Shown in pieces: positions 27,095 to 60,205 of a stretch of 64,000 nucleotides of DNA. Below the pieces are notes generated by a model. The model worked only from the letters and a program-made list of their open reading frames with translations, searched no databases and was not told where the DNA came from. The stretch is taken from positions 1,258,955 through 1,322,954 of the forward strand of contig NZ_RFLW01000001.1 of NCBI RefSeq assembly GCF_003719295.1. The letters are read 5' to 3'. How positions within the stretch are numbered: position 1 is the first letter of the stretch; each line of letters opens with the position of its first letter. Origin of the DNA: Haliea alexandrii. GTDB lineage: Bacteria > Pseudomonadota > Gammaproteobacteria > Pseudomonadales > Halieaceae. The position numbers and the translations under genes were made by a program.

Positions 27095-28622
27095 AGCAAA
27101 AACGTCGCAGGACAATTGGCTTCGCGCTTTTTCCGGCATGACGATACCAGCGATATATTTTCTTGCTGTGCTGGCTGTTTTTCATGAAACGGTCATGTCG
27201 ATGATTCAGGTATGGGTCGAAGGAGAGACCTTTGCTCACGGCTTTCTGATTTTACCCATTTGTTTGTGGCTGGTTTGGCGAGAACGAGCTGCCTTGGTTG
27301 AACACATGGCTAAACCGGCATTATGGGTGGTTTTGCTGACTTTTCTGGGTGTTCTTGCTTGGCTTGCGGGTTGGCTGGTCGACGTTAACTTGGTGCAGCA
27401 GTTGGCACTTGTCTGGATAGCAGTTACGGGGATCTGGGCACTGATTGGCACCGGCGCGGCGAGACGCATCGCCTTTCCGCTGTGTTTCCTGTTTCTGGCT
27501 GTGCCGATGGGAGAAGGCCTAATACCACCCTTGATGGAGCTGACTGCTGACAGTACGGAATACTTGGTACGGTTAAGCGGAATTCCTGTGTATAGAGAAG
27601 GGATGTATCTGACCTTGCCGACCGGGCTTTGGTCAGTTGTGGAGGCCTGCAGCGGGGTGCGCTACCTCATCGCCTCATTCACGCTGGGATTACTTTACGC
27701 CTATTTAAGTTTCCGTAGCACAAGCCGAAGAGTCATCTTTGTGATGTTTGCCATCCTGGTACCCGTGATCGCAAACAGCTTGCGAGCCTATGGCATCGTA
27801 ATGATCGGGCACCTCTCTGGAATGGAGTTGGCAACGGGAGTTGATCATCTCATCTACGGCTGGGTGTTTTTTGGTGTCGTGATGCTGCTTCTGTTTTGGG
27901 TTGGCAGTTTTTGGCAGGAAGCAGAGTCCCACACCTTAGCTGAAGATAGCGAGGTTAGAGGAGCGGTTGTCTATAGATCTGCCAAGTCATCGCAGCGTAG
28001 AGCGTTTGTGTTCTTGCTGTTTGTTATCACCGCGGCACCCGGTCTGGCAGCCTTGCTCACCTCAGGTGAAGCTCAGCGTGTGGGGGGGATTCGTCCTCTG
28101 GACCCGGCTCCCGGCTGGAGGGTCTCTGAGGATCCCCAGTGGGGATGGCTGCCAAATCAGCAAGGTGCGGATCGAATCGCCCATCAGTACTACCTTGGCG
28201 ACAGCGTGGTTATGGTCTCGCTTTATCAGTATTTAAACCAGGTCCCCGGTGCAGAACTGGCGAGCAGTGGCGAGGCATGGAGAGCCGACCGCGCTGCGTG
28301 GCGTTTGGTCAAGGAGGATACGGTCGATCTCGCAATGGTAGGGAAAGGCATTTCGGTTGATGAAGCAGAGTTGGTGAATACATCAGGACAGCCGAGCTTG
28401 CTTGTATGGACTTGGTATCGGGTAGGCAACGAATACACTGCCAATCCATATCGCGTAAAGTTATTGGAAGCGAAGCAAGTGCTGTTTGAAGGAGGAAGAG
28501 CTGGAAGCCGGTTCTTCTTGGCAACCCCAATCGGTGAGGATAAGGACACGTCACGTCTCACTATGGAGGCGTTTGTCCAGAGCCATCTTGAGAGACTGGA
28601 AGTTGTGCTGGACACTCGATGA
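27081..28622 (+). CDS. xrtA: Exosortase A fused to EpsI domain
   Basis: Inner-membrane cysteine transpeptidase/protease proposed to cut PEP-CTERM proteins and hand them to a surface acceptor. The N-terminal 300 residues have about eight membrane helices and the exosortase triad: C190 in EACSGVRYL, R235 in NSLRAYGIVMIGH and H256 in DHLIYGWVFF. After another helix, residues about 310-513 form an EpsI (DUF3485-type) periplasmic domain (RVSEDPQWGWLP, VMVSLYQYLNQVPGAELAS, SLLVWTWYRVG). ATG 27081 has GAGGGG just upstream; an in-frame extension to 27030 runs further into the preceding gene and is less likely. Confidence 0.93.
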   Translation: MSISEAKTSQDNWLRAFSGMTIPAIYFLAVLAVFHETVMSMIQVWVEGETFAHGFLILPICLWLVWRERAALVEHMAKPALWVVLLTFLGVLAWLAGWLVDVNLVQQLALVWIAVTGIWALIGTGAARRIAFPLCFLFLAVPMGEGLIPPLMELTADSTEYLVRLSGIPVYREGMYLTLPTGLWSVVEACSGVRYLIASFTLGLLYAYLSFRSTSRRVIFVMFAILVPVIANSLRAYGIVMIGHLSGMELATGVDHLIYGWVFFGVVMLLLFWVGSFWQEAESHTLAEDSEVRGAVVYRSAKSSQRRAFVFLLFVITAAPGLAALLTSGEAQRVGGIRPLDPAPGWRVSEDPQWGWLPNQQGADRIAHQYYLGDSVVMVSLYQYLNQVPGAELASSGEAWRADRAAWRLVKEDTVDLAMVGKGISVDEAELVNTSGQPSLLVWTWYRVGNEYTANPYRVKLLEAKQVLFEGGRAGSRFFLATPIGEDKDTSRLTMEAFVQSHLERLEVVLDTR

Positions 28623-29842
28623 CTGTGAGCGCGAACGCCCCTCCCCTTGTTGTTCACATTATCTTTGCATTAGGCACGGGTGGGCTGGAGAACGGGCTCA
28701 TAAATATCATCAACCGGTGTCCCCCGGAGCGCTATCGCCATGCAATTATTTGCCTCACGCGAAGCGAGGAATTTTCCGCTCGCATTACAGCACCCGGCGT
28801 AGAGGTGATTGAACTGCACAAAAAGCCGGGTCATGACCCGGGTATGTACTGGCGCCTATGGCGTACGCTGCGCCGTTTGCGCCCTGCTATTGTGCACACA
28901 CGTAACCTGGCCGCGTTGGAGACCCATGCCCTCGGGATACTGCTTACCGGCTGCAAACGGGTACACGGTGAGCATGGCAGAGACATCAGCGACCTTGACG
29001 GTAGCAATCGGAAGTACCAGTTGTTACGCAGGATGCTGAATCCCCTGATCCATCGGTTTATCGCGGTGAGCCGCGACCTTTCGGACTGGCTGGTTACGTC
29101 GGTAGGGATTTCTCCTGACAAGGTGGTACAGATCTACAATGGTGTCGCGCAGGACAGTTTCACGCCGCAGATTTCAGAAGCGGCAGATCGCGGACAGGTA
29201 GCTGAGGCGGTACGTGTTGCAGTGCCCGGTATGCCAGAGGGGTTTTGTGATGCGCCGCAGTGCCGGGTGGTGGGCACAGTGGGTCGCCTGGCTGCAGTGA
29301 AGGACCAAAAAACGCTTCTTGTGGCTCTTGCAAAGATATTCCGGGACAGCCCTCAGCGGAGGGATACCCTGCGCTGTATACTGGTTGGCGATGGCCCGGA
29401 GCGCTCGGCACTGCAGAAATTGTTGGTAGAACTCGGTTTACAGAGCTGCGTTTGGATGGCTGGTGACAGGGACGACATACCTGAACTTCTGGCCTGCATG
29501 GATGTATTTGTGCTGCCATCTCTTGGGGAGGGCATATCCAATACGGTTTTGGAAGCTATGGCTACAGGTTTGCCGGTCGTGGCTACCCGCGTAGGCGGTA
29601 ACCCAGAATTGGTTGAGCATGGCGTGAATGGCTTGTTGGTGCCTGTGGGGGATGCGGCAGCACTCGCTGAAGCGCTACAAGGGCTGGCTGATGACCCAGT
29701 GAAGTGCAAGCAAATGGGCAACGCAGCGGTACAGCGAATACAAAGGGATTTCGACTGGGAACGAACGGTGTATTCGTATCTGCAGGTTTACGACAAGCTC
29801 TTAGAGCGGACCTGTTTCCCGGAATCAATGGAGAGGACCTGA
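28619..29842 (+). CDS. Glycosyltransferase, PEP-CTERM/exosortase-A associated (type 2)
   Basis: GT-B family 4-like enzyme of 407 residues, coupled to the exosortase stop by ATGA. It begins after a short leader with VVHIIFALGTGGLENGLIN, the acceptor-side loop. The donor site shows TVGRLAAVKDQKTLL, LVGDGPERSALQ and the E-x7-E region PSLGEGISNTVLEAMATGLPVVA. It adds one sugar of the repeat; donor and linkage are not readable from sequence. Confidence 0.9.
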   Translation: MTVSANAPPLVVHIIFALGTGGLENGLINIINRCPPERYRHAIICLTRSEEFSARITAPGVEVIELHKKPGHDPGMYWRLWRTLRRLRPAIVHTRNLAALETHALGILLTGCKRVHGEHGRDISDLDGSNRKYQLLRRMLNPLIHRFIAVSRDLSDWLVTSVGISPDKVVQIYNGVAQDSFTPQISEAADRGQVAEAVRVAVPGMPEGFCDAPQCRVVGTVGRLAAVKDQKTLLVALAKIFRDSPQRRDTLRCILVGDGPERSALQKLLVELGLQSCVWMAGDRDDIPELLACMDVFVLPSLGEGISNTVLEAMATGLPVVATRVGGNPELVEHGVNGLLVPVGDAAALAEALQGLADDPVKCKQMGNAAVQRIQRDFDWERTVYSYLQVYDKLLERTCFPESMERT

Positions 29843-29844
29843 CT

Positions 29845-31752
29845 GTGTGTGGCATTGCCGGTATCTTTGATCTGACCCAACAGCGCGAGCCGGATCGTGA
29901 GCTGCTGGCCGCTATGAATCAGACCCAGTTCCACCGTGGCCCGGATGAAGGGGGGCTGTACATCGTCCCCGGCGTTGGCCTGGCACATCGTCGCCTTTCC
30001 ATCATTGATCTGGCCAGCGGGCAACAGCCCATGCTCAGTGCGGATGGCAAGCTCTGTGTCGTCTACAACGGCGAGATTTATAACTTCCGGGAGCTGGCAG
30101 GCGAATTGGAGGCCCTTGGTTATCGCTTTCGCACGAACTGCGACACCGAAGTTATTCTCTATGCCTGGCAAGAGTGGGGTGAGCGCTGTGTGGATCGTTT
30201 GCGAGGCATGTTCGCTTTCGCACTTTATGATTTAAATGCGCGCAGCCTTTTTCTTGCCCGTGACCGCTTCGGCATCAAGCCCCTCTTTTATAGCGTGCTG
30301 GCAAAGGGGCAGCTGATCTTCGGTTCTGAGCTCAAGGTGATCAAGGCGCATCCGGACTTGCCTAGGGCGCTGGAGCCGAGGGCAGTTGAGGATTACTTTG
30401 CCTTAGGCTATGTGCCGGAACCGAAGACTATCTACCGCGATGTGTTTAAGCTGCGCCCGGGACACACCATGTTGTTCCGCCGTGGCGAGCCAGTGCCAGC
30501 GCAGAAGCAGTTCTGGGATATCCCTTTCAAGCCCGTGGCAGTGGCCAGTGAGGCAGCCTTGCAGGCGGAGTTGCTTGCTCGTTTGCGCGAGGCTGTGCAG
30601 GTGCGCATGGTAGCCGAGGTGCCGCTGGGCGCATTTCTATCTGGTGGTGTAGACTCCAGCGCTGTAGTGGCGATGATGGCGGAGCTACAGAGCGAACCGG
30701 TGAACACCTGTGCTATCGGGTTTGATGTCAAACAATTTAATGAAACCGAATACGCGGCTCGAGTCGCAGAGCGATATCACACCAACCACTTCCAGGAAGT
30801 CGTTAGTAGCGAGGACTTCGACTTACTGGACGAACTTGCCGGTTTGTATGACGAGCCCTATGCGGACAGCTCCGCCATCCCCACCTACCGGGTCTGCCAG
30901 CTGGCTAAGCAACGGGTGACGGTTGCGCTGTCGGGAGATGGTGGCGATGAGCACTTCGCCGGTTACCGCCGTTATCGCTGGCACATGCACGAGGAGCGGC
31001 TGCGTCAGGCCCTGCCGCTTGGGCTGCGCAAGCCGCTGTTTGGTGCGCTCGGCCGGCTGTACCCCAAAGCAGACTGGGCACCGCGCATGTTCCGCGCCAA
31101 GACCACTTTTCAGGCGCTGGCGCGCAATTCGGTGCAGGCGTACCTCCATTCCGTCTCCATATGCAGCGATGAGCAGCGTGCGGCAATGTTCAGCAGTGCG
31201 TTCAAGCGCGAGTTGCAAGGGTATTCTGTGCACTCTGTGTTCGATGATCACGCAGCCAATAGTCCCACCGATGATCCGCTGTCGATGATCCAGTATCTCG
31301 ATATGAAAACCTATTTGGTAGGCGATATCCTCACCAAGGTGGACAGAGCGAGCATGGCGCATGCGCTTGAGGTGCGTGTGCCCTTGCTTGATCATCCGCT
31401 TACTGAGTGGGTGTCCGGGCTGGCGCCCGAATGGAAGTTGCGCGGCCAGGAAGGCAAGTACCTGCTGAAGAAATCCTTGGAGTCTCGCCTGCCGCACGAT
31501 GTGCTGTATCGCGACAAAATGGGTTTCGGCGTGCCCTTGGCCAAATGGTTCCGCGGGCCGTTGAAGGAACGTTTGCGTAAAGATCTGCTGGATTCCGGTG
31601 GATTGGCGGCCACCGGGCTTTTTAATCATGATTATCTGGCACGCCTGGTTGACGAGCATCAGTCCGGACGGCGCGATCACAGTGCGCCCCTGTGGACCCT
31701 GTTGATGTTTCAGGCCACGGTTCGTGACGATCAGTTTGTGGTGGGAGCGTGA
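29845..31752 (+). CDS. Asparagine-synthase-like amidotransferase, exosortase-A associated
   Basis: Class II glutamine amidotransferase plus ATP-dependent synthetase. I start at GTG 29845, because the next residue is then the catalytic Cys (V-CGIAGIFDL) that becomes N-terminal after Met removal; AGAGGA lies about 8 bases upstream. The glutaminase domain (1-210) has RLSIIDLASGQQP and YNGEIYN; the synthetase domain (about 240-600) has the PP-loop LSGGVDSSAV and ALSGDGGDEHFAGY. 635 residues. Amidation of a uronic acid or a carrier-bound acid is plausible; the substrate is not known. It overlaps the next glycosyltransferase by GTGA. Confidence 0.92.
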   Translation: MCGIAGIFDLTQQREPDRELLAAMNQTQFHRGPDEGGLYIVPGVGLAHRRLSIIDLASGQQPMLSADGKLCVVYNGEIYNFRELAGELEALGYRFRTNCDTEVILYAWQEWGERCVDRLRGMFAFALYDLNARSLFLARDRFGIKPLFYSVLAKGQLIFGSELKVIKAHPDLPRALEPRAVEDYFALGYVPEPKTIYRDVFKLRPGHTMLFRRGEPVPAQKQFWDIPFKPVAVASEAALQAELLARLREAVQVRMVAEVPLGAFLSGGVDSSAVVAMMAELQSEPVNTCAIGFDVKQFNETEYAARVAERYHTNHFQEVVSSEDFDLLDELAGLYDEPYADSSAIPTYRVCQLAKQRVTVALSGDGGDEHFAGYRRYRWHMHEERLRQALPLGLRKPLFGALGRLYPKADWAPRMFRAKTTFQALARNSVQAYLHSVSICSDEQRAAMFSSAFKRELQGYSVHSVFDDHAANSPTDDPLSMIQYLDMKTYLVGDILTKVDRASMAHALEVRVPLLDHPLTEWVSGLAPEWKLRGQEGKYLLKKSLESRLPHDVLYRDKMGFGVPLAKWFRGPLKERLRKDLLDSGGLAATGLFNHDYLARLVDEHQSGRRDHSAPLWTLLMFQATVRDDQFVVGA

Positions 31753-37845: not shown

Positions 37846-37914
37846 CCGAGATAGAGATGGGTGGTTGTGCTAGACTAATTGAGTGAGTTACGAGGGCGTC
37901 GTCCGGAGTCTCAA

Positions 37915-40443
37915 GTGCCAGATACCCTAGCATTCCCAACATTACTGCGCCCAGTTCTCTGGGCGTTTTCGTTGTTGGCGGCTGGAGCCTTCGGCCAGGA
38001 AATTTACATCGAACGATATTCGGGAGCAGCCGCTCAGGCGTGGGCCGAATACGTCAGAATACGCCTTGGTGAGCAAAATGGCCCCGCAGAGCCTTCGGCG
38101 CCTGCCCCTGGACCCGCGCCCACCACGCCTGCTACGCCCAAAGCGTCACCGGTGAGCCCTGCGCCAATTCCGCCGACGCCTTCGCCTCCGCAACCGGTGG
38201 TATCTGGGCCGCAGGGCAGTGTGGCTCCCGGCGATCCCTTGGCTACGCTTACCACACCTTTGGTCTATACCCGCGTGCCGCGCACGCGTGGCACTGCTAT
38301 GGCGACATTGCGCGATGGCTCAGAGGTGAGCCTTGATAGCCCTGATGTGTGGGACGCGCTACCTGACACCAGACGCGTGTTCAGCGGATTCAATGCACCA
38401 GGTCAACTGGTTCTTCGCCACCCTGACGGCTCGGAGCAGATACTCTTTGACTGCTTCCAACAGGCGCAGCCCTGTGTGCCGCTGGATGCGGCAGTGTCTT
38501 TGGATGGCGGCCGTGTGCTCTTCTCCGTCTACTACGGAGAAAAGCTCGGTAACGGCTGGTGGGATGGCGCCACGCTGCCTAATCGGGTGCTTTCCGGGGC
38601 ATCGCATGCGCGTCTGCATGTGGTGGATCTTGAAACCGGCCTGGTGACACCCCTCACGCACCAAGCGGGCGTGTTTGATGTCTCCCCAGCTTGGTTACCC
38701 GACGGTCGGATAATGTTTGCATCGAGCCGACAGCCTTTTCGCGAGCCCCGGTTGCATTGGATAACACCCAACAACCGCCCCCATACGCAGCTCTATATTG
38801 CTGATGCGGACGGGAGCAATGCGGTCAACGTGACACCGCACGAAGTGTCTTCGGCTCTGCATCCTTATTTACTCGACAGCGGAAGGGTGGCCTACGGATC
38901 GCACTGGCTGAGTCATAATCTGGCATACAGCAGCACCAATGGCAGTATCAATTGGCCCGGCACCCTGGATAACTTCTGGGTGGTCATGGACATGGATGCA
39001 CGGGGGGGGGACATGACAGCCCTGCTCGGCGGCCACCGGGCATCCTTGCAGGCAAGCACTGGACGAACCAAGACAATGAAGGCGCTGCACTTTCTTGGCC
39101 AGCGTCAGAACGGCGATATCTGCGTGGCCAACTATTATCGGGCGAATAATCTTGGTCTGGGAGACGTTTTTTGCTGGCCACCGGAGCCCGTAGGCGTGGA
39201 AGGTGCTCTTCCCAACTTTTTGCCACGAGGTATTTATAACGTCGCGGATTGGTCGAAATCAAATGACGAGCCTTCGTTCAAAGAAGATGGTGAATTTCTG
39301 GGCAAGATTGGCTATCCCGAGGGTATGGAGGGCGATCAGCTGCTGCTGACAGTGGGGCGGGGCTATTGCACTCAGGTTTCTGGATCGGTGCAGAGTTTTC
39401 AACGCGCAGTTGCAGATCAGCCGAACAAGCGTGCCTGTGACGTCGGTCTTTATCATACCTCGGTGTTACCCTCCAAAAATATGCAGGATCTGGTCGAGGT
39501 TGTCGATCACCCTGATTGGCACGAGTTTGGTGCCCGGGTGGTACGGACACGTGGTGTTGAAGCGCCTGTTCCAAGAATGACTCATGACAGCACCTGTCAG
39601 ATTGCAAGCAGCGATGCGCTTACGGGGGAAACTAGCCCCCGTCGCCCGTATCAGTTCAATAACAATTACGTCACATCCGCTAATAATGGTGGTGAAATCG
39701 ACGGTCTGCCCGCTGGGGAACTGGCCGCGATCCGATTTTGGAGGGTGTTCTCCAATCCTTTAGGTGAGGATGACTTCAAAAACTCGATAGGGAATCGTCT
39801 GGGTTTGTTGGGCGATGTGCCCCTTCTCGCGGACGGATCATTCAAGGCTAAGGTTCCCTGCGATGTACCCTTCGTAATGGCAGGGGTAGACGCTGACGGG
39901 CGGGTGATAAAGCGTGACCAGGTGCCACAGTCATTGCGACCGGGCGAAAAGCGCGTTTGTACCGGTTGTCATCAGCACTCAATCCCTGGGCGGGCCTACG
40001 AGGCATCAATGGCTTTCGCCGCAAAGCCGGTTGAGATCTTGAGCACGCGGCGGGTGCCCACGTTCGAAGATGATATAAGGCCAATCTTCGAACGTCGCTG
40101 CCTATCCTGCCATGTGGATGACGTGCCGTTGATGGAATATGACAAACTGGTTTGGGACTTCTTCCAGGAGTCAGTGTTGCCTGAAAGGCGTGTTCAGGTA
40201 AAGGAAACAACAGACAAGAGGCGGCAGTATGGTTTGCAGAGGCCGTATACGAGTAAATATGTGAACACGATGTTCGCAAGGGAAAGCCTCTTGTACTGGA
40301 AGGCGGCCAACCGGCGTCTGGATGGCCGTACTGACGCGACATATGCCAACGACATCGACTTTGGCCCCAACCATCCCGTTAATATTAGTCCACTGGAATT
40401 GCGGACTCTGGCCGAATGGTTGGATTCAGGCGCGCCGCGCTAG
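37915..40443 (+). CDS. Secreted di-heme protein related to hydrazine synthase alpha subunit (HzsA-like)
   Basis: About 842 residues. I prefer GTG 37915 (GGAG six bases upstream, signal peptide LLRPVLWAFSLLAAGAFG follows directly); a TTG at 37879 would add 12 residues. A Pro/Ala-rich linker (about 55-105) follows. The middle part has beta-propeller (PD40-like) repeats: SLDGGRVLFSVYYGEK, LPDGRIMFASSRQP and LDSGRVAYGSHW. The C-terminal part has two heme c sites, CTGCH (C682-H686) and CLSCH (C729-H733). This architecture matches HzsA-related proteins outside anammox bacteria, whose role is unknown. It closes the plus-strand operon and is convergent with the next gene by one base. Confidence 0.75.
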   Translation: MPDTLAFPTLLRPVLWAFSLLAAGAFGQEIYIERYSGAAAQAWAEYVRIRLGEQNGPAEPSAPAPGPAPTTPATPKASPVSPAPIPPTPSPPQPVVSGPQGSVAPGDPLATLTTPLVYTRVPRTRGTAMATLRDGSEVSLDSPDVWDALPDTRRVFSGFNAPGQLVLRHPDGSEQILFDCFQQAQPCVPLDAAVSLDGGRVLFSVYYGEKLGNGWWDGATLPNRVLSGASHARLHVVDLETGLVTPLTHQAGVFDVSPAWLPDGRIMFASSRQPFREPRLHWITPNNRPHTQLYIADADGSNAVNVTPHEVSSALHPYLLDSGRVAYGSHWLSHNLAYSSTNGSINWPGTLDNFWVVMDMDARGGDMTALLGGHRASLQASTGRTKTMKALHFLGQRQNGDICVANYYRANNLGLGDVFCWPPEPVGVEGALPNFLPRGIYNVADWSKSNDEPSFKEDGEFLGKIGYPEGMEGDQLLLTVGRGYCTQVSGSVQSFQRAVADQPNKRACDVGLYHTSVLPSKNMQDLVEVVDHPDWHEFGARVVRTRGVEAPVPRMTHDSTCQIASSDALTGETSPRRPYQFNNNYVTSANNGGEIDGLPAGELAAIRFWRVFSNPLGEDDFKNSIGNRLGLLGDVPLLADGSFKAKVPCDVPFVMAGVDADGRVIKRDQVPQSLRPGEKRVCTGCHQHSIPGRAYEASMAFAAKPVEILSTRRVPTFEDDIRPIFERRCLSCHVDDVPLMEYDKLVWDFFQESVLPERRVQVKETTDKRRQYGLQRPYTSKYVNTMFARESLLYWKAANRRLDGRTDATYANDIDFGPNHPVNISPLELRTLAEWLDSGAPR

Positions 40444-40444
40444 G

Positions 40445-41296
40445 TCATTCTCTCCCAGACGATGACTGGAATTGCTGCCATTGCCGCTGCAAAATCTGCG
40501 CCCTCGGCCAAATTCTTGTGAAGAGTCTCGGCTGGTAATCACCGGAAGCATACAGGCGCCGCCGGGTGGGAGAGGTCGCCAAGGCCCCCGATTTACCTTC
40601 CCTGTCCTCGCCTGCGAACAATATGTACGCGCCACATCGCACGGGAACCTCGCGCAGATAAACGAGGCGAGGACTGATCCGCGACAGATTGGGATCGAGA
40701 AACCAGCTGGTGCTCTGAACTCCGCGAAAGCTCGGGTTCAGCTGCAGGAAGTCAGCCAGGTATTCGTAACACTCCAGCAAACCCGCAGGATGGAAAGCCT
40801 CTTTGACTGCAGGGTGCATGTGAAGCTCTAAAAACGGCCGGGTTCCGCGGCTGGCTGCTGTTGCTCGCAGGAAGCGGATAGCTTGCTTCGGGCCGCCCTT
40901 GATCGCCAGGGAGCGCGGGATCCCTGAGTGGGGATTGGCGAACTCCGCCCCAAACGGGATTAGCCGATGCAGCAGGATAGCCAGATCCTTGCGGAATGGA
41001 TCATTTTGAAAACTGAAGTAACTATCAGGCATATTCGCGGCCGTGAATTGAAGTCTTTCCAATTGCGCGTCGTAGAGTAGAGCAACACATTTCGGTAACT
41101 TCCAGGGCGATTCCGAAAGTGAGAACTCCTTTAACAGAAAAATCAGGAGTCGCTTGTTAAACGGAACAGCACCTCGCCTTTCTTTTGTGGACAACTCCTG
41201 CTCGAGTGCTAATAAATTTTCTGGCAGGGCGGCGTACCCGGTACCCGCGACTGGGGCTAGTGCAAGGGCACAATACTCCTCTATATCTGTTGTCAT
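40445..41296 (-). CDS. Conserved-looking protein of unknown function in the variable block
   Basis: 283 residues, soluble, no signal peptide or membrane helix. I do not recognise the family. The C-terminal third looks the most ordered (STSWFLDPNLSRISPRLVYL, then LATSPTRRRLYASGDYQPRL), with several Arg and a Trp-Pro-Arg motif near the end. HMHPAVKEAF and LECYEYLADFLQLNP may form a substrate pocket. It is first in sequence of a run of minus-strand genes with the ATP-grasp enzyme and a deacetylase, so a role in polysaccharide modification (for example a GNAT-like transferase) is possible but unsupported by motifs. Confidence 0.6.
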   Translation of the reverse strand: MTTDIEEYCALALAPVAGTGYAALPENLLALEQELSTKERRGAVPFNKRLLIFLLKEFSLSESPWKLPKCVALLYDAQLERLQFTAANMPDSYFSFQNDPFRKDLAILLHRLIPFGAEFANPHSGIPRSLAIKGGPKQAIRFLRATAASRGTRPFLELHMHPAVKEAFHPAGLLECYEYLADFLQLNPSFRGVQSTSWFLDPNLSRISPRLVYLREVPVRCGAYILFAGEDREGKSGALATSPTRRRLYASGDYQPRLFTRIWPRAQILQRQWQQFQSSSGRE

Positions 41297-41414: not shown

Positions 41415-42512
41415 CTACCGCATGCTCGGCTGGCGAAAAATTTCCCGATGAGGTTTGTCGAACACAATCGCCGCGGTTGGGTCTGGCTCTACGTTGAGCT
41501 CAATAACGACCGGACCATCGACGGTAATCGCGACATCTACGCCGGCAAACTGTATATGTGGGAAGGCCGCTACTGCACGTATCGCGAGGCTCACCGATTC
41601 GATCCAGAATGGTACTGTTGCTCCGGTAATTTTCTCTCCCGAATCCTTGTGGGTTTGGAACGTTTCATTCCAGTTGTCGTTTTTCAGGCTCAGGCCCGTA
41701 CCGATTTCGCCTGTATCCGTGTCGATCGGGAAGATTAGTCCGCCCTGGCTCGTATTGTCTACCAAGCGGCCTCGGCGACCAACGCGCAGAAAGGCCCCCA
41801 AAATATCTTGAGTATCACCTCTGTTGATTGCCCAGATCCTCAGGGTGTTGACGCTGGATGCGTTAAGGCGTGCTACTTCAGGGTGCTGATTTACATACTC
41901 CTCAATAATGTAATCGGCCCCTGCACCGGGCTGCAGGATATTGTCGACAAACTCGGAAACGCTCGCTACCTTTTTTGAGTCTAGTAACCTGAGCTTCAAG
42001 GTGTCTCCTCTTTCAAGGCTAACCGCCTGAAAACCCTTTCCACCGTAGCCTTCTACCAGCTTGAAGCATACCCTTTCCACCTGCTGCTGCGTCAGCAACA
42101 GCTGCGTCAAATCGTCAGCGTTGACGAGTCTGCTGCCGGTTGCAGTGACCCCAACCCGATTATGTAAGCGGCCCAGGAATCTCGGTGTCGGAATTCCGAC
42201 TAATTGAAGGATGGCCTTCTCGCTAATTTTGTTCTGTGACAGCTTTTGGTAGGCGGGAGGATTCAGCGTGTTTACATGGTGTCGGAATTTCTTGTATGTC
42301 CAGAAGCCACTTTTGAACCGCCAAGGCAGATCCCTGCGCCAGTAACGCGCGACATGGTAATGGCCGGGGCCCAAGCCATAGAGTACGCGCAATATCAGCA
42401 TTTCGACGAACTGCCTGCTGGCCGCGAGATGTCCTTCGCTTGCTCGCCTTAGGGTTTGCCGTACGACGCCCCCTAAAGTGGTTTTTTGCGGCCGCTTCAA
42501 GTGAACATTCAC
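41415..42512 (-). CDS. Sugar-transfer-associated ATP-grasp enzyme
   Basis: 365 residues. ATP-grasp fold of the group linked to sugar-transfer loci: CFKLVEGYGGKGFQAVSLE forms the first ATP-binding Lys/Gly loop, ADYIIEEYVNQHPEVARLN the second, and FAGVDVAITVDGPVVIELNV carries the Mg-binding acids (E-x-N). The usual chemistry is ATP-driven joining of a carboxylate to an amine via acyl phosphate, here perhaps an amino acid to an amino sugar or uronic acid. A 117-base gap follows it with nothing recognisable, then the unknown gene. Together with the Mur-ligase/Pth fusion it suggests amide-bond chemistry. Confidence 0.82.
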   Translation of the reverse strand: MNVHLKRPQKTTLGGVVRQTLRRASEGHLAASRQFVEMLILRVLYGLGPGHYHVARYWRRDLPWRFKSGFWTYKKFRHHVNTLNPPAYQKLSQNKISEKAILQLVGIPTPRFLGRLHNRVGVTATGSRLVNADDLTQLLLTQQQVERVCFKLVEGYGGKGFQAVSLERGDTLKLRLLDSKKVASVSEFVDNILQPGAGADYIIEEYVNQHPEVARLNASSVNTLRIWAINRGDTQDILGAFLRVGRRGRLVDNTSQGGLIFPIDTDTGEIGTGLSLKNDNWNETFQTHKDSGEKITGATVPFWIESVSLAIRAVAAFPHIQFAGVDVAITVDGPVVIELNVEPDPTAAIVFDKPHREIFRQPSMR

Positions 42513-42561: not shown

Positions 42562-43608
42562 CTAGCGCCTTTTTCGCCGGGAAAATCCTAAAGACGTGCT
42601 GGCTTGGCGTATCAATTCCATGAAGCCGCTCATTTCCGCCTCAAATTCTAGTTCTGAGATGTTTTGCCCATCGAGCAGGCGAGGCAGAGCATATATTGCA
42701 GACTGACCATCCACCATTCCGAGCTCGGTGGTCGTAGCAGAGGTAACGCCAGCGTCATTTAGATGCGGCCAAATTTCCTGCGAAAACCTCCCGCTAGGAT
42801 AACAAAAGTGAACCGGACCCCGCCCTGTTATATCCTCAATGCACCCGCTATTGAGCACGAGTTCCTGCTCCAGACAGTCTTCATCGTCATACCTGATTCT
42901 GTGGCGGTGGGTGTGCATTTCCACAGAAACGCCCTTCTCTGCGGCATCCTGAACTTCCTCCGCGTTCATGAGATGAAACCAGCGTTCTGTTAATAGCTTC
43001 TCGTAGTCCACGTCAGCTTTCTTGCATACTGATTGTAAGAACAATTGCCTCCTTGCATCATCCTGCAGTTTGGATATGGCGTCCACTGCGGCTGCAAGGG
43101 CGAGGGCTTTCTCCTGATCCGTCCCAGTTGGTAGTGGCCCGAATGCGAAGTCGGAAATATGAATTTCTGGGCATCGGGCTGAGTCAATTTGCTGAAAACA
43201 GTAGTCTAACGCGACATCGATAACCGGTGCCTGATTGACACAATAGTATGTCGTTAAATAGATGGTGGCGGGGTAGCTGTGTGCCAGCAAAGCAGGAAGC
43301 ATATGCACATAAGTGCTATACCACCCATCATCAATGGTAATCACGGTAGCTGATTTGGGGAGCCTACCCCCGTCAAGGCCTTCGATGGCCTGCGTTAGTG
43401 GAATTACCGGGTACCCCCACTTGTTGAGTAATGCCAGTCTTCGTTGAAATTTGCGGGCGTCCATGTACAGAAAGTTGCCAAAATGACCTTCACCAAGCCA
43501 AATGCCGTGATAAGCCAGGATGCGAACTCGACCGGACGTCAGGTGCCTGCTCAGGGCAAAGAGTCCTATAGCGCGTCCGAGCGAGAGGATGAAGAGTTTA
43601 AAGTTCAA
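42562..43608 (-). CDS. Polysaccharide deacetylase family protein
   Basis: 348 residues starting with TTG (AGGGG five bases upstream). NodB-type core: RILAYHGIWLGEGHFGNF (first His), ATVITIDDGWYSTYVHMLP (Asp pair) and SVEMHTHRHRI (metal His motif). A middle insertion (about 145-215) separates the motifs. It is the third deacetylase of the locus and the least like the other two. It is upstream of the ATP-grasp gene in the same direction; a free amine made here could be the acceptor for that ligase. Confidence 0.82.
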   Translation of the reverse strand: MNFKLFILSLGRAIGLFALSRHLTSGRVRILAYHGIWLGEGHFGNFLYMDARKFQRRLALLNKWGYPVIPLTQAIEGLDGGRLPKSATVITIDDGWYSTYVHMLPALLAHSYPATIYLTTYYCVNQAPVIDVALDYCFQQIDSARCPEIHISDFAFGPLPTGTDQEKALALAAAVDAISKLQDDARRQLFLQSVCKKADVDYEKLLTERWFHLMNAEEVQDAAEKGVSVEMHTHRHRIRYDDEDCLEQELVLNSGCIEDITGRGPVHFCYPSGRFSQEIWPHLNDAGVTSATTTELGMVDGQSAIYALPRLLDGQNISELEFEAEMSGFMELIRQASTSLGFSRRKRR

Positions 43609-43850: not shown

Positions 43851-45773
43851 TTGAGTGCATTCTTGCCGATTGTGCATATACCGGAGCGCTTGGTTTTGGC
43901 CATCACCGCATTGACAAGTCGTGCCAGGGATCTTGTCGCAATCCTTCGCTGGCGAACGGAGTTCGCCTCGGCGATGGCTCGAGCGCTGATAAAAAGGTCA
44001 GTGCTCGGAAAGGTCGAGTTTGTGGGCATTACGGGTAGTGCGGGCAAGACCACAACCAAGGATCTCTGTGCCGGTATACTCTCAGGTAAAGGGTCGGTAA
44101 CCAAGACTCAGCAGTCCTCTAATGAGCCAGCGATGGTGGCCAACACGGTGGTCGCTACGCGGCCTGGTGACCGGTATTCAGTTGTGGAAGTGTCCGGCGG
44201 CGAGCCTCGGGCCATGAACTGGCCTCTCAGGTTGTTCACGCCGAGCATCGCCGTTGTAACGCTCATTCAACGTGAACATGCCCGGTCCGATTTCGGGCTT
44301 GAGGACATCGCCACGGAGAAGTTCCGACTTGTCCAGGCATTGCCGAAAGATGGCATTGCAATCCTGAATATTGATGACCCTCTGTTGCTGGAGAGGGGGC
44401 AGCACTGCCGTAGGAAGGTGATCTGGGTGGGGCGGAGCGAGGGTGCCACTCTGCGTCTACTGGAATGTCAATCAAAGTGGCCACAACCGCTGACCCTGAA
44501 GGTCAAGTACAAAGGCGAAGATCATACAGTGGTGACGGCGCTGCACGGCGAGCAACTCGCGCTGTCTGTTCTCTGTGCTTTGGCCGTGGGGGTGGCGGCT
44601 GGTATGGAACTACCAGACGCCATCAAAAGCCTGCGTAAATTGGAGCCCAGCGAGGGGCGAATGCAGGTTGTGGCCGGTAGAGATGATGTCACGTTCCTGC
44701 GGGATGACTGGAAAGCCCCTCTTTGGTCGTTGGACTCGCCCATGAAATTTATGCGAGATGCCAAGGCACCACGTAAAGTCATGGTAATCGGCACGCTTTC
44801 GGATTACTCACGGTCAGCATCCAAACTCTATCCACAGGTGGCGGAAAGAGCGTTGGAAATTGCCGACCAGGTAATTTTTGTCGGCCCCAATGCCTATCGG
44901 GCTACAAAAAAAGCAAATGGAGACCAGCTGAAGCGTTTGCACGGTTTCGCTGAATTGCGGCAGGCTTCGCTGTATTTGCGTGAGGTGCTGCGTCCGGGGG
45001 ATCTGGTACTGCTGAAGGGCTCGTCCCGTGCGGATCACCTCGTGAGGTTGATTCTCGACCGGGAAAGCCCCATCGCATGCTGGGAAAGCCGGTGTGGTAA
45101 ATCTCAGTTCTGCACGCAATGTAAGAGAGCCTACGATTTCTCCAACCCCGCCACTATACATTCCGACGCGCTCTCTGCTGCCAGTGACGCGCTTCCGCTT
45201 ATTCCTAATGTTCAGGGACGTATTGCCTTATTGGGGCTGGGCAACCCGGGGGGAAAATACCAGCTAACGCGGCACAATGCCGGGCATTTTGCACTCGATA
45301 CGCTGGCCCAAGAGCAGGGCATGGTTTGGGAGCAGATATCTCTGGGACAGGTCAGCGAGGGGGTCATACAGGGTGTCCAGGTCATGCTGGTTAAACCGGA
45401 CGCCGCCATCAATCATTCAGGTGAGGTGATTCGCAGAATGCTCGGGGCCGAAGAGCTCGCCAGCGCAGCGGTCGTGATTCACGACGATATGGATCTTGAG
45501 CATGGCACAGTCAAAGTGTGCCGAGGGGGTGGCGACGGCGGCCATCTTGGGGTGCGTTCTATCATCGGCGCGTACGGGACACAGGATTTTCAGCGGATTC
45601 GGCTGGGGGTACGCCCGCAAGGCGATGACAGCAAGAGCCGACGACTGGTTCACCAGAGACTATCGAATCAGGAGCTACAGCAGCTTACCGCAGCGTTTTC
45701 GTCCGGATTGCAGCAACTGCTAAATCAGCTACAGCGGCACGAGGCGAGCCTTGTCGTGGACGCTGGAGCGTAG
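43851..45773 (+). CDS. Mur-ligase-like / peptidyl-tRNA-hydrolase-like fusion protein
   Basis: 640 residues in one unbroken frame. Residues about 50-400 are a Mur ligase (MurF-like): P-loop GITGSAGKTT (59-68), VVEVSGGEPRAMNWPL, AILNIDDPLLLERG and a C-terminal domain. Residues 410-424 hold C-x4-C-x5-C-x2-C, a possible zinc site. Residues about 456-640 are a Pth domain: N465 (GLGNPGGKY), H475 (TRHNAGH), N521 (NHSG) and D545 (IHDDMD) match E. coli N10, H20, N68 and D93, but the N114 position is L566. The start (TTG 43851) is uncertain. It is the only plus-strand gene of the block. Possibly an amide ligase that uses, or strips, aminoacyl-tRNA-derived groups for the polysaccharide; this is inference. 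Confidence 0.8.
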   Translation: MSAFLPIVHIPERLVLAITALTSRARDLVAILRWRTEFASAMARALIKRSVLGKVEFVGITGSAGKTTTKDLCAGILSGKGSVTKTQQSSNEPAMVANTVVATRPGDRYSVVEVSGGEPRAMNWPLRLFTPSIAVVTLIQREHARSDFGLEDIATEKFRLVQALPKDGIAILNIDDPLLLERGQHCRRKVIWVGRSEGATLRLLECQSKWPQPLTLKVKYKGEDHTVVTALHGEQLALSVLCALAVGVAAGMELPDAIKSLRKLEPSEGRMQVVAGRDDVTFLRDDWKAPLWSLDSPMKFMRDAKAPRKVMVIGTLSDYSRSASKLYPQVAERALEIADQVIFVGPNAYRATKKANGDQLKRLHGFAELRQASLYLREVLRPGDLVLLKGSSRADHLVRLILDRESPIACWESRCGKSQFCTQCKRAYDFSNPATIHSDALSAASDALPLIPNVQGRIALLGLGNPGGKYQLTRHNAGHFALDTLAQEQGMVWEQISLGQVSEGVIQGVQVMLVKPDAAINHSGEVIRRMLGAEELASAAVVIHDDMDLEHGTVKVCRGGGDGGHLGVRSIIGAYGTQDFQRIRLGVRPQGDDSKSRRLVHQRLSNQELQQLTAAFSSGLQQLLNQLQRHEASLVVDAGA

Positions 45774-56362: not shown

Positions 56363-57387
56363 TATCGTCTATCCAGCATCGCGAATACGGCAAGGTATAT
56401 ACAGTACGCCTGCCACTTCAGTGAATAGCGATGTGCGAGCGCTACGCGGGCAAGCACGGCTGCTGCTTTGCGCTCACCGCTTTGCCGTTTAAGTGTTGTC
56501 AAATGTTTATATAGTGGCGACAGGCGGGTTCTACAGGCATCCACCACATCCGGGTGCTCACTTGTGCACAGGTTCTTCTGGTAGACACGTATTTGTGACA
56601 AGCGCTTCTGAGTTTCGTCAACGGAGGTCGACTCGTTATTTCTTTTGCTGATCGCGGGTACGTTGTGGCGACCAATGCATCTTGCCGTATAGATGATGTG
56701 GGATGCGACGCTTAGTGTGCGCAAGTACAAGTCGACTTCACATTCGTAGCGAATGCCCTCATCCATGCCACCCAGATCGAGGAACAGCTGGCGGTGTAGG
56801 ATGGTGCAGTTGAGGTGTGGAAAGCCGCCATGTTGCAGCAATGTGCGCGGCTCTACGCGGAACGTACCGCAAGGGGCGTTCGTGATCGGCAGTTGGTTTG
56901 CAAGCCCATCAAGCCAAAGTGCATGTTCTACCCGTTGATTATTTTCGTCGTATGCCACTTGATTACTGTAGTAAGCGTCCACATCGCCATCGCTGCGCAG
57001 TATGACATCTCGGGCAGTCTGTAAATGCTCCATATCTTCCCAGCTGTCATCGTCGTCCAGGATGCATAGATAACGCCCTCTAGCCGCGCGAGCCCCCGTG
57101 TTGATGGAATAGCTTGGGCCATGGCCGTTCGGGCGCTGGGCTTGGCAAATCCATGATACGCAATCAGCCGCATCAGCTTCCATCGCTTGATAGGCGGCCA
57201 AATATTCGCCGGCAGAGCCATCATTCACTACGATGACTTCTAAATCCTGCGTGCTTTGTGCAAGCACAGATTGGAGGGCGCGCTGGAATAGTCCGGGGCG
57301 ATTGCGAGTGGGTATGATTACTGAGAAGAATGGTGCGTCATGTTCGACCGCGCCAGGCATTTGCTCCAACTTGGACTCGCTAGACAT
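56362..57387 (-). CDS. Glycosyltransferase family 2
   Basis: GT-A enzyme of 341 residues. FFSVIIPTRNRPGLFQRALQ, VIVVNDGSAGEYL and the metal motif RYLCILDDDDSWED are clear. The acceptor part has LDLGGMDEGIRYECEVDLYL, and the C-terminus is Arg/Lys-rich and helical. Overlaps the ATP-grasp/phosphatase gene by 8 bases and ends in the start of the sulfotransferase. Confidence 0.87.
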   Translation of the reverse strand: MSSESKLEQMPGAVEHDAPFFSVIIPTRNRPGLFQRALQSVLAQSTQDLEVIVVNDGSAGEYLAAYQAMEADAADCVSWICQAQRPNGHGPSYSINTGARAARGRYLCILDDDDSWEDMEHLQTARDVILRSDGDVDAYYSNQVAYDENNQRVEHALWLDGLANQLPITNAPCGTFRVEPRTLLQHGGFPHLNCTILHRQLFLDLGGMDEGIRYECEVDLYLRTLSVASHIIYTARCIGRHNVPAISKRNNESTSVDETQKRLSQIRVYQKNLCTSEHPDVVDACRTRLSPLYKHLTTLKRQSGERKAAAVLARVALAHRYSLKWQAYCIYLAVFAMLDRR

Positions 57388-59131
57388 GATTGTGTGTCCC
57401 CTGCAGGGCGCCGGATAAAGCGCTCACGGCTTCCCGGATTTGCAGGAAGCAGGATTCATAAATTGCGGGCGCCTGATTATAGGGATCGAGAATTTCAATG
57501 CTATTAGCACGCTTGTCTGAAGCTGTGCCCAGCAGGAAGGTTCGGGTGGCCGTGTCTGGGTACATCTTGGTGAGTTGATCGAAATGGCGTTTTTCCATGA
57601 CGAATATAAGGTCACTCTCTTCTATAAGCTCTGCACTTACATACGTAGAGCTGCTATTCGCGAGCGCAATGTTATGCCGGGCGGCAACCGCGACCATACG
57701 TGGATCTGCCGGTCGCCCGGTTTCTTCATGGAAGCCCGCGGAGCGGATTTTCCTTGTGTTTGCTAAAGGCTGAATCGCAGACATGGCAGCCTCGGCGACA
57801 ACACTCCGATTGATGTTGCCATAACAAACAAACAGAATACTGCGTGAGCTGCGGAGTTTCTCGCGTATCGTTCCGTTTCGCCAAAGCAAGCGCTGCTGCA
57901 GGGAAAACCAGTGCTCCTTCCAGAGGCCGGCGACTCGTAGCGCATACTGTCGCGCGAGGCGGCCGATATCGACCAAGCCGGGTAATGGATCACTGAAATT
58001 TTGAATATCGAAGTAATGGTGGAATGAAAAAACCTCCACCAGGTCCCTGGCGATGGAGCGCCCCGAAGGGGTTTTCGTTGTATGGTCACTTTTGCTGCGC
58101 AGAACCATTTCATGCCACATCAGGTCGCGAGACAGATTTCGACACACAACGCCGCGCCGGTAGGGTGGGTAGTGTGGCACGTCACCCGTCAGCGCGAGGT
58201 CCACAAGCATTGACGGGAAATCGGCGCCGGCTGCGGTTGCCAACGGCAGAGATCCCCACAAGCGGCCATTGATTTCCATCAGGCAATAGCTGCGGTCATC
58301 CGGGTTCCACTTGAACTCAACCATCGCGACACCGGTCCAGCGTGCTGCACTCATCAGCTTTTTCGCTGCCTCAAGTAATTCAGGCGCGATCTCGGTGCTC
58401 GCCCGAAGGCTGCTGCCCCCACCCGTAAGCGGTACCTCGTGCAGGCGCACGTGTTGAAACGCGTACAGAATCTCGCCGGCCCGTGCAATTAGCTCAATGC
58501 CTGCGCCCTGGCCCTGGAAATAGGTTTGCAGGATGACGGGGGAGTGCTCTAGGCAGGCCTCGCATTGTGCGCGCAAACACTCGAGGTTGTTTGCATAGCT
58601 TACGTCTCTTCTTGCGTAGCCCGAGGCGCTGCCCGACAGGGTTTGGCTGGGTTTGATAACCATCGGCCATGTTAAATCCGATGGCAGATTCTTGAGGTCG
58701 GCTAGGTTATGGAGATAAAAGCTTCGCGGTGTGGAGATTCCCAGCTCTTCAGCAAGTTTGAAAGTGGCGTTTTTGTTCAGAGCTAAAGTAAGACTCTCTG
58801 CGCTGGGCAGCGCTATCTTTACGTGTGGTAGTTGGTCGCGACTTTCCGACAGTGGCAGCAACGAACGTTCCGTAACCGGTATGACCAAGTCATAGCGGTG
58901 TTGCCGTGTATGCTGCTCAAACCAGGCCAGGAACGCAGACCTGTCCTCGGTGGGATCTGGATAGCGGAATGTTTCAATTACGGATTTGGAGTAGCTGGTT
59001 ATGGGGCGCCGCGCTGCGCTAGCAACACTGACGCGGTATTTCGCGGCATTCAGGGAGCGCGCAACAGCAAGTGCTGGTGTCATATCGGCGTCAAGTATCA
59101 GAATTCTTTTGGATATACGCGTTGTTGACAC
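57380..59131 (-). CDS. ATP-grasp ligase fused to a low-molecular-weight tyrosine phosphatase domain
   Basis: 583 residues. About 1-400 are a carbamoyl-phosphate-synthase-like ATP-grasp protein: ILILDADMTPALAVARSL (preATP-grasp), TWPMVIKPSQTLSGSASGYA (ATP loop) and VAMVEFKWNPDDRSYCLMEI followed by NGR (Mg-binding E-x-N). About 430-583 are an LMW-PTP: C436-YGNIN-R442 keeps CX5R, and ILDPYNQAP gives the general-acid Asp. The GTG start at 59131 has no strong ribosome site visible. It heads the variable block's minus-strand operon. The fusion could tie amide ligation to the phosphorylation state of the kinase. Confidence 0.85.
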   Translation of the reverse strand: MSTTRISKRILILDADMTPALAVARSLNAAKYRVSVASAARRPITSYSKSVIETFRYPDPTEDRSAFLAWFEQHTRQHRYDLVIPVTERSLLPLSESRDQLPHVKIALPSAESLTLALNKNATFKLAEELGISTPRSFYLHNLADLKNLPSDLTWPMVIKPSQTLSGSASGYARRDVSYANNLECLRAQCEACLEHSPVILQTYFQGQGAGIELIARAGEILYAFQHVRLHEVPLTGGGSSLRASTEIAPELLEAAKKLMSAARWTGVAMVEFKWNPDDRSYCLMEINGRLWGSLPLATAAGADFPSMLVDLALTGDVPHYPPYRRGVVCRNLSRDLMWHEMVLRSKSDHTTKTPSGRSIARDLVEVFSFHHYFDIQNFSDPLPGLVDIGRLARQYALRVAGLWKEHWFSLQQRLLWRNGTIREKLRSSRSILFVCYGNINRSVVAEAAMSAIQPLANTRKIRSAGFHEETGRPADPRMVAVAARHNIALANSSSTYVSAELIEESDLIFVMEKRHFDQLTKMYPDTATRTFLLGTASDKRANSIEILDPYNQAPAIYESCFLQIREAVSALSGALQGTHNHV

Positions 59132-59269: not shown

Positions 59270-60205
59270 TCAGGCAGAGACGTTCTTGCGACGACGGCCA
59301 GCAAAGCCCAGTGCCAATACGCCGGCGCCAAACAAGCCCAGTACAGAGGGCTCAGGAATCAGCGTAGCTGTGTAGCTCATCGCAATATGAATAGAGCTTG
59401 TCCCTGGGTCGTTCTCGGGCGTGAAGACCGAGATGGTGGTGCCATTGTCAACAACCACGGAGGGGCCAACTGGCGTGCCATCATTCGTCGAAATTCCAGG
59501 CAGCAGCTGGAAGCTCAGGTCGTACTTGTAACCCATGTAATTGAAGGAGACGGGTGCGAAGGCGCCTGTCGATGCAGTAAACACGTCGTCACAGTTCGTG
59601 CCGAGAGGGTTCAGGCCCGCGCAAGTCGTCTGATTCAGTGTTTCGTTAAAGCTGATCTGATTGGTGGTAGTCGGATCCTGGTAGGCAAGCGTTGTACGTC
59701 CTGCGTCTGCAAAGATGCGCAAGTCAGCCAGAGTGTCGACAGTCCAGAGTGGATCGTTGATTGCCCCGCCGAGGGAATCGAGGGCTTCGTTGGTTTGCGT
59801 GATAGTGTCAATCACCCACCAGTCACCCTCATTCCACTGGCCGTCAACGTCTGTACCGGCAAAGCCGGCGGTGTAACGCAGAGGCGTTGCGCCGTCTACA
59901 TCAACGGTTGGAGCGGAATCGTTGTCAAATGACTGGATGCCGATGGATGACTGCGCGGGGGCATTGCCACCCTCCCACGCAAAACCGAGGCTGGTGCCAG
60001 CCGGCGCCAGGCCGCCCGCGTCAGGGTTGGCTACAGTGCTGCCAGCTTTGAACTGAAGAGAGCCGCCAAAGAATGTAGGTGTACTAAAACCCGCATGCTG
60101 GCTGAACCCCAGCTGTGCAAGCGGTGCTGCCACCGCCGAAGTACCAGCTACGGCCATCGCGAGGAGACTCGCTGCGCCTGCTGTCTTGATCATCGTTTTC
60201 ATCAT
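59270..60205 (-). CDS. PEP-CTERM sorting-domain protein
   Basis: 311-residue secreted protein. Signal peptide (ASLLAMAVAGTSAVAAPLA). The mature part is Gly/Asn/Thr-rich and beta-like, with a TCAGLNPLGTNC pair of Cys and no catalytic motif. The C-terminal sorting signal is complete: P-E-P in LIPEPSVLG, a membrane helix (LGLFGAGVLALGFAG) and RRRKNVSA. It is the substrate type for the exosortase at 27.1 kb and probably a surface/matrix protein. AGGAG lies 4 bases before ATG 60205 and 7 before the next ATG (60202), so either may be used. Expression is probably RpoN-dependent. Confidence 0.92.
   Translation of the reverse strand: MMKTMIKTAGAASLLAMAVAGTSAVAAPLAQLGFSQHAGFSTPTFFGGSLQFKAGSTVANPDAGGLAPAGTSLGFAWEGGNAPAQSSIGIQSFDNDSAPTVDVDGATPLRYTAGFAGTDVDGQWNEGDWWVIDTITQTNEALDSLGGAINDPLWTVDTLADLRIFADAGRTTLAYQDPTTTNQISFNETLNQTTCAGLNPLGTNCDDVFTASTGAFAPVSFNYMGYKYDLSFQLLPGISTNDGTPVGPSVVVDNGTTISVFTPENDPGTSSIHIAMSYTATLIPEPSVLGLFGAGVLALGFAGRRRKNVSA

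Follow-up and report, generated by a model that had tools for sequence, protein, structure and literature searches.

Mur ligases use ATP to activate a carboxylate and then form an amide with an amine, and the conserved lysine of these enzymes is carbamylated. The N-terminal domain of MurF binds UDP-MurNAc, while MurT and CapB lack a domain of this type and act on lipid-linked or polymeric substrates; MurT additionally carries a four-cysteine (Cys4) site inside its middle domain. Bacterial peptidyl-tRNA hydrolase (Pth1) cuts the esters of N-acyl amino acids. Here we describe a protein that joins a Mur ligase to a Pth domain within an exosortase locus. Its components are known and their combination appears new: searches of the open literature, with subscription papers mostly outside their scope, found no description of a Mur ligase-Pth fusion and no paper on a Mur ligase linked with an exosortase or on a sugar-transfer associated ATP-grasp, and the available text of PMC2922099, PMC12419801, PMC11915815 and PMC11980579 describes no such fusion.

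An analogy between exosortases and sortases was proposed in PMC1569441 (partial text), and the compound to which exosortases attach PEP-CTERM proteins was called unidentified in PMC7468200 (2020). The available part of the latter deduces that type IX cargo is attached to an amino-acid-bearing uronic acid or uronamide, reports that the families of enzymes making this linking sugar are also present in XrtA loci, and speculates that exosortases use the same type of sugar. In the underlying Wbp/Vim pathway VimA matches TIGR03019, WbpS is a member of eps_aminotran_1 and VimE is a putative deacetylase. The same part of PMC7468200 describes neither a Mur ligase nor an ATP-grasp or Pth for this pathway, which sets it apart from the locus considered here.

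The window analysed is a stretch of 64,000 nucleotides from Haliea alexandrii (contig NZ_RFLW01000001.1, positions 1,258,955 to 1,322,954). It contains a 640-codon open frame without internal stop (43851-45773, plus strand) encoding a Mur ligase, a Cys4 motif and a Pth domain in a single chain. A preliminary description had read this frame as a MurF-like ligase followed by a four-cysteine site and a Pth domain; Pfam matches and residue positions confirm that reading, and its numbering of the P-loop (59-68), the cysteines (C410, C415, C421 and C424) and the Pth residues N465, H475, N521 and D545 holds. The coordinates given are those of the longest frame. Translation probably begins at the TTG at 43896, giving a protein of 625 amino acids, because GGAG at 43883-43886 (plus strand), a likely ribosome-binding site by its spacing, precedes this codon and three homologues from the same genus begin there.

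The ligase part consists of MurF-like middle and C-terminal domains (residues 60-391; 44028-45023, plus strand), with Mur_ligase_M (residues 60-246, 81.5 bits) and Mur_ligase_C (residues 269-391, 48.2 bits) both over their Pfam cut-offs. The features of the Mur superfamily are all present, namely the GxxGKT P-loop (G62-T68), the conserved lysine (K157, next to E156) and the C-terminal domain. MurF provides both the best family match (TIGR01143, 178.4 bits) and the best fold (4qdi), and the P-loop, K157 and the D285 region are kept; however, the score lies below the NCBIfam cut-off of 288.6, and the match starts at position 64 of the 418 in the model, indicating that the MurF N-terminal domain is absent. 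Four other single-Mur proteins scored 171.8-190.7 bits against TIGR01143, and the 352.4 bits obtained with a double-Mur chain (genome G942) are the sum of two stretches. An AlphaFold2 model built from a 20-row alignment (mean pLDDT 86.6, pTM 0.67) places a long N-terminal helix (residues 12-49 of the longest frame, net charge +5; 43884-43997, plus strand) where MurF has its N-terminal domain. Foldseek searches with this model ranked MurF (4qdi) first and Pth (8axp) 49th.

Comparison with the other described systems gave partial likenesses. Like MurT, the fusion ligase is without a MurF-type N domain and has a Cys4 site, and like the MurT/GatD system for lipid II amidation, its locus combines a Mur ligase with an amidotransferase gene; unlike in MurT, the Cys4 is C-terminal rather than within the middle domain, and the MurT model gives 21.9 bits against a cut-off of 800. 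Cyanophycin synthetase, whose structure 7lgj is also matched by the model, combines an ATP-grasp and a Mur ligase for one product. Here the two are neighbouring genes rather than one chain, the ATP-grasp is unfused and of the ATPgrasp_ST family, a Pth domain is present, and the cyanophycin synthetase model reaches 32.1 bits (cut-off 850). Assignments to MurF, MurT and cyanophycin synthetase were rejected since the family cut-offs are missed.

The Cys4 motif (C-x4-C-x5-C-x2-C; 45078-45122, plus strand) is a probable zinc site. It occurs in all 26 tabulated Mur-Cys4 modules (15 in fusions, 11 solo), a universality that holds partly by construction because solo proteins were collected in part by this motif. 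Three MurF-like relatives are without it, and they differ from the fusion ligase also at E156, R284, K288 and H396. Some fusion modules look degenerate: K157 is replaced by I or M in two of the 15 (L072a and L072d), and a P-loop glycine is missing in another (GSAAKT in G942 module 2).

The Pth domain (residues 460-622; 45228-45716, plus strand) resembles bacterial Pth1, matching PF01195 (Pept_tRNA_hydro) with 137.8 bits (cut-off 27) and TIGR00447 (pth) with 133.1 bits (cut-off 100). N10, H20, N21, N68, D93 and H113 (E. coli numbering) are retained in 14/14 fusion Pths. For comparison we assembled 17 housekeeping Pths, 13 found by motif in 20 stretches plus four earlier ones, in which N10, H20 and N21 are biased because the search motif requires them, N68, D93 and N114 being unbiased. 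While all 17 have asparagine at position 114, only one of the 14 fusion Pths does, the other 13 having arginine (six), leucine (four) or lysine (three). The fusion Pths further differ from Pth1 in the alteration of T65 and F66 and the change of E94 to aspartate (14/14 in each case, the latter against 1/17 housekeeping Pths), in a missing C-terminal LHxF end, in a loss of charge and in being fused to a ligase. A basic residue is found at K105 in 11 and at R133 in 13 of the 14. Of six same-genus pairs, five allowed dS of the Pth domain to be estimated; in these its dN/dS was 0.11-0.27, with dS near saturation (0.9-2.0), compared with 0.09-0.17 in the Mur part and 0.27-0.87 in the linker. Purifying selection acts on the Pth domain.

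CRS2 is a Pth relative with a non-catalytic scaffold or RNA-binding role, and the fused module could likewise serve as a scaffold or bind RNA, leaving the ligase as the only activity that matters. The leucine that occupies the oxyanion position in fusions from the window's genus would agree with such a role, as would the universal change of E94: in the Thermus enzyme (TtPth), mutation of Glu83, which we equate with E94 by aligning D82 with D93, to alanine leaves 1.8% of kcat/Km (PMC11994314, partial text). Nevertheless, aspartate at position 94 also occurs in one of the 17 housekeeping Pths, and six active-site residues are invariant in 14/14 fusions while the linker diverges freely; we consider a purely non-catalytic module improbable. 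The preliminary description had correctly placed Leu566 at the N114 position, as alignment shows, and had taken it as the hallmark of a reshaped Pth. That interpretation did not survive, since leucine is found there only in the window's genus (4/4 fusions), and active TtPth naturally has arginine at this place, according to the available text of PMC11994314, which also reports a markedly reduced kcat/Km for R103A. With Leu566 the window's protein has neither asparagine nor arginine as an oxyanion partner, while N, R or K stands there in 10/14 fusions. Since arginine is natural in an active enzyme, the fusion Pths with arginine or lysine are plausibly active, the window's leucine form less surely.

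The same two-domain order, which the preliminary description had proposed to look for elsewhere, recurs in several bacterial families, with at least 14 fusion proteins in at least 11 genomes from several genera. Within the window's genus four of eight genomes carry it. Across the family, a Mur-Cys4 match (E <= 1e-55) was obtained in 8 of 140 genomes, five of them with a fusion to Pth: the window's genome (G000), G003, G005, G006 and G356, the last a single-contig genome from another genus. Five of 369 genomes in a class sample match the fusion alignment (E <= 1e-75), G000 and G861 being fused, and in the family of G861 the four matching genomes out of 47 all have the fusion. A profile search of a contig collection found Cys4 after a Mur match in at least five loci, at least two of them with Pth, among the 80 loci listed; the fusions are from a Burkholderiaceae MAG (L070) and a Propionivibrio MAG (L072, four in tandem). 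The window protein as a lone query gave no match in this collection. Four records were returned by a plasmid search, one a Gemmobacter Mur-Cys4 without Pth and three Streptomyces murF. The double-Mur chain of G942 (L165, 5948-9280) has the order Mur-Cys4-Mur-Cys4-Pth in 1110 residues.

Individual loci showed further variation. Among the four tandem Mur-Cys4-Pth genes of L072 (9592-17238), copies b and c are identical over a long part of the Mur domain, which might reflect gene conversion or a fault of assembly. In L070 the gene immediately downstream of the fusion (11913-13427, plus strand) encodes another Mur ligase, one that has no Cys4 tail. The Mur-Cys4 protein of L159 (9153-11066) has about 220 extra N-terminal residues and a P-loop without its last glycine.

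Trees were built with FastTree and contain long branches and few outgroups. In the Mur-module tree all 15 fusion modules fall into one clade (support 0.992) together with the solo protein of G017, in which a GNAT gene sits at the place expected for Pth; ten further solo Mur-Cys4 proteins lie outside. A single clade with one solo member inside suggests one fusion event followed by one loss in G017. With midpoint rooting, all 14 fusion Pths separate from the 17 housekeeping Pths. Because 11 Mur-Cys4 proteins are without Pth, one of them within the fusion clade, the Pth domain is dispensable to the ligase.

The rarity of the fusion is what might suggest a chance event, an assembly artefact or a stand-in for the housekeeping pth, and nothing further favours these readings. 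The preliminary description had itself named uniqueness to this assembly and identity with the sole housekeeping pth as outcomes that would undo it. The first is contradicted by the recurrence of the fusion, including on the single contig of G356, which rules out an assembly artefact. As for the second, the genome has a separate, full pth (G000, C1:1450467-1451021), which scores 205.8 bits where the fusion scores 141.3, as well as a separate MurF-like match (C1:1509002-1510138); more than one Pth match was found in 4 of 398 genomes of the phylum, the window's own included. Purifying selection on the Pth domain also speaks against chance. All three readings are already refuted.

The fusion gene is in an XrtA exosortase/exopolysaccharide locus, in agreement with the earlier placement inside an exopolysaccharide locus. 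The window contains exosortase A (27030-28622, plus strand; TIGR03109, 342.2 bits), an XrtA/PEP-CTERM amidotransferase (29704-31752, plus strand; TIGR03108, 1060.6 bits, cut-off 816.9), a FemAB-like protein of the XrtA system (24739-25770, plus strand; TIGR03019, 470.3 bits), an XrtA-system polysaccharide deacetylase (23795-24742, plus strand; TIGR03006, 437 bits, cut-off 276.2), a TIGR03100 hydrolase and a PEP-CTERM protein (59270-60205, minus strand; NF038125, 104.6 bits, cut-off 85) that is likely an exosortase client. Proteins of the TIGR03019, eps_aminotran_1 and deacetylase kinds, which recall the Wbp/Vim pathway, are all present. A polysaccharide deacetylase-like gene (42562-43608, minus strand) separates the fusion from a ligase-like gene of the ATPgrasp_ST family (PF14397, 142.7 bits; 41415-42512, minus strand), a family reportedly linked to Iyer 2009.

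The ATPgrasp_ST gene is a recurrent neighbour. Homologues (64-67%) lie near the fusion in L023-L025, and the family is represented in the examined flanks of nine of 11 fusion loci (the window, L023, L024, L025, L068, L070, L072, L165 and L166), with none seen at L157 or L167 in the five neighbour frames scanned at each. At the genome level it is found in 11/11 fusion genomes. Since nine of these have a second, strong member, and PF14397 matches occur in seven of 14 control genomes (two over the cut-off), only the adjacency is telling. At L070 and L166 an AsnB-like amidotransferase gene precedes the fusion in the same orientation. The preliminary description had held that homologues at random loci would count against it: most lie in exopolysaccharide loci, but two of the 11, those of G861 and G908, stand among unrelated genes (HI0933-like, EamA, RuBisCO or hydrogenase; ten neighbour frames scanned).

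All 11 fusion genomes contain an exosortase, compared with 92 of 274 in the class sample (90 over the cut-off). In eight of the 11 it is on the same contig as the fusion, within about 40 kb by coordinates, and in G942 (a short contig), G861 and G908 on another. Seven of nine fusion genomes tested have a PEP-CTERM match; G861 and G908 gave none with this short model of low sensitivity. Because exosortases are common in the class and PF14397 occurs in controls, part of this association is expected. Moreover, the same-genus genomes G001, G004 and G007 have an exosortase and no Mur-Cys4 match at E <= 1e-55 (the contig of G007 ends 2.2 kb further on), and the XrtA locus of G001 contains other ATP-grasp genes without the fusion. 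Thus the gene co-occurs with the XrtA/PEP-CTERM system, is not found in every XrtA genome and belongs to a variable cassette; a role as a core exosortase component was rejected.

The electrostatics of the two parts bear on what the Pth domain would act upon. Mur-Cys4 modules are basic (mean net charge +6.3 for 15 fused and +7.5 for 11 solo, against -4.3 for three MurF-like relatives), while the fusion Pths average +0.3 (n=14) compared with +3.8 for housekeeping Pths (n=17; Mann-Whitney p = 7e-5, relatives being counted as independent), which counts against a full tRNA as their ligand. PEARLs are tRNA-dependent peptide ligases, and by comparison the Mur module might make an N-acyl-aminoacyl-tRNA that the fused Pth would at once cleave to an N-acyl amino acid and free tRNA. 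The ligation product would then be exactly a Pth substrate, and the basic Mur modules, the invariance of N10, H20, N68 and D93, the mostly basic positions 105 and 133 and the FemAB-type protein in the same locus are all compatible with this. The lost positive charge of the Pth domain and the altered T65 and F66 argue the other way, as do the solo Mur-Cys4 proteins, although a housekeeping Pth could serve these. A linked tRNA gene was rejected, none being present in the window or the 15 related loci scanned. On balance we regard tRNA-dependent ligation as unlikely.

Alternatively, the ligase might take free amino acids and the Pth domain act in editing, removing wrong aminoacyl or acyl esters from sugar hydroxyls. 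Retention of the catalytic residues with loss of charge fits this idea, and the absence of Pth from 11 Mur-Cys4 relatives is what an optional proofreading part would show. We know of no precedent, however, for sugar esters as substrates of an enzyme with the Pth fold, and N10, by which the peptide bond of an N-acylated substrate is recognised according to the available text of PMC11994314, is invariant. We likewise regard an editing function as unlikely.

Because the chain unites a ligase with Pth and its loci also encode further amino-acid ligases and amidotransferases, aminoacyl decoration is the best reading of its function. We propose, with a probability of roughly 0.4, an accessory biosynthetic role in XrtA/PEP-CTERM exopolysaccharide loci: the cassette-borne enzyme would join an amino acid to a carboxylate through an amide bond, and its Pth domain would hydrolyse an N-acyl-aminoacyl ester. 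The Mur module is probably an amide ligase, which would use ATP to turn the carboxylate into an acyl-phosphate and then couple an amino acid to it through the amine. Its predicted target, an exopolysaccharide or its linker, is held with somewhat less assurance; the carboxylate might belong to a uronic acid in a saccharide, either lipid-linked or polymeric, or might be the terminus of an aminoacyl chain under construction. That the Pth module is an active esterase is predicted at even odds across the family, and at lower odds in the window's genus because of Leu566. The decoration product would pass through, or stray into, an N-acyl-aminoacyl ester, with tRNA, a sugar hydroxyl or another group as the possible ester partner, and hydrolysis of this ester would take the product off an amino-acid-presenting carrier or clear mis-formed esters, and the ATPgrasp_ST, AsnB-like and FemAB proteins would add more amino acids or amide groups.

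The domain architecture, its recurrence, the single Mur clade, the conserved active-site residues, purifying selection and the neighbourhood form the observed basis for this reading. Against it count the unrelated neighbours in G861 and G908, the Pth-less relatives, the degenerate modules and the same-genus exosortase genomes without the fusion. The preliminary description had suggested an amino acid on a uronic acid or amino sugar. Decoration of this kind suits the neighbours (ATPgrasp_ST, TIGR03108, TIGR03019 and the deacetylases) and would resemble the amino acid on a uronic acid or uronamide in the Wbp/Vim pathway (PMC7468200, partial text); a UDP-sugar as the direct substrate is unlikely because the MurF-type N-terminal domain is absent, and by analogy with other ligases of this build the acceptor is probably lipid-linked or polymeric.

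A stable, inherited union of a ligase with a domain that cuts N-acyl-aminoacyl esters predicts a chemistry for which we found no description in surface polysaccharides, and it suggests an unstudied route for attaching amino acids to surface sugars. Its recurrence in exosortase genomes along with amino-acid ligases, amidotransferases and deacetylases provides named genes for testing the attachment partner of PEP-CTERM proteins. A bolder reading, which we consider improbable, is that the protein is an amide ligase dependent on tRNA or another ester carrier with a built-in release hydrolase, and that tandem copies together with ATP-grasp ligases would equip a uronic-acid glycan with an aminoacyl group or short peptide that differs between strains; the amine of this group would be the exosortase acceptor for PEP-CTERM proteins. 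If true, it would play in Gram-negative bacteria the part that the lipid II peptide plays for sortase and the seryl/glycyl linking sugar for the type IX system.

Several other proteins in these loci deserve mention. In the window, a 583-residue chain (57380-59131, minus strand), with homologues in L024 and L025, combines a PRK12767-type ATP-grasp with a Wzb-like low-molecular-weight tyrosine phosphatase. For a 283-residue protein (40445-41296, minus strand) without a Pfam or NCBIfam match (E <= 0.01), homologues occur in L023 and L070 in the vicinity of ATPgrasp_ST and the fusion. Within the exopolysaccharide locus, an 854-residue protein (37879-40443, plus strand) contains CxxCH motifs and a middle domain resembling hydrazine synthase alpha, and has homologues in L023-L025. 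Finally, related proteins with weak DUF6395 or QueC matches lie near three Mur-Cys4 genes (L027 7857-9152, L025 13459-14637 and L156 12254-13390) and are perhaps a further partner of Mur-Cys4.
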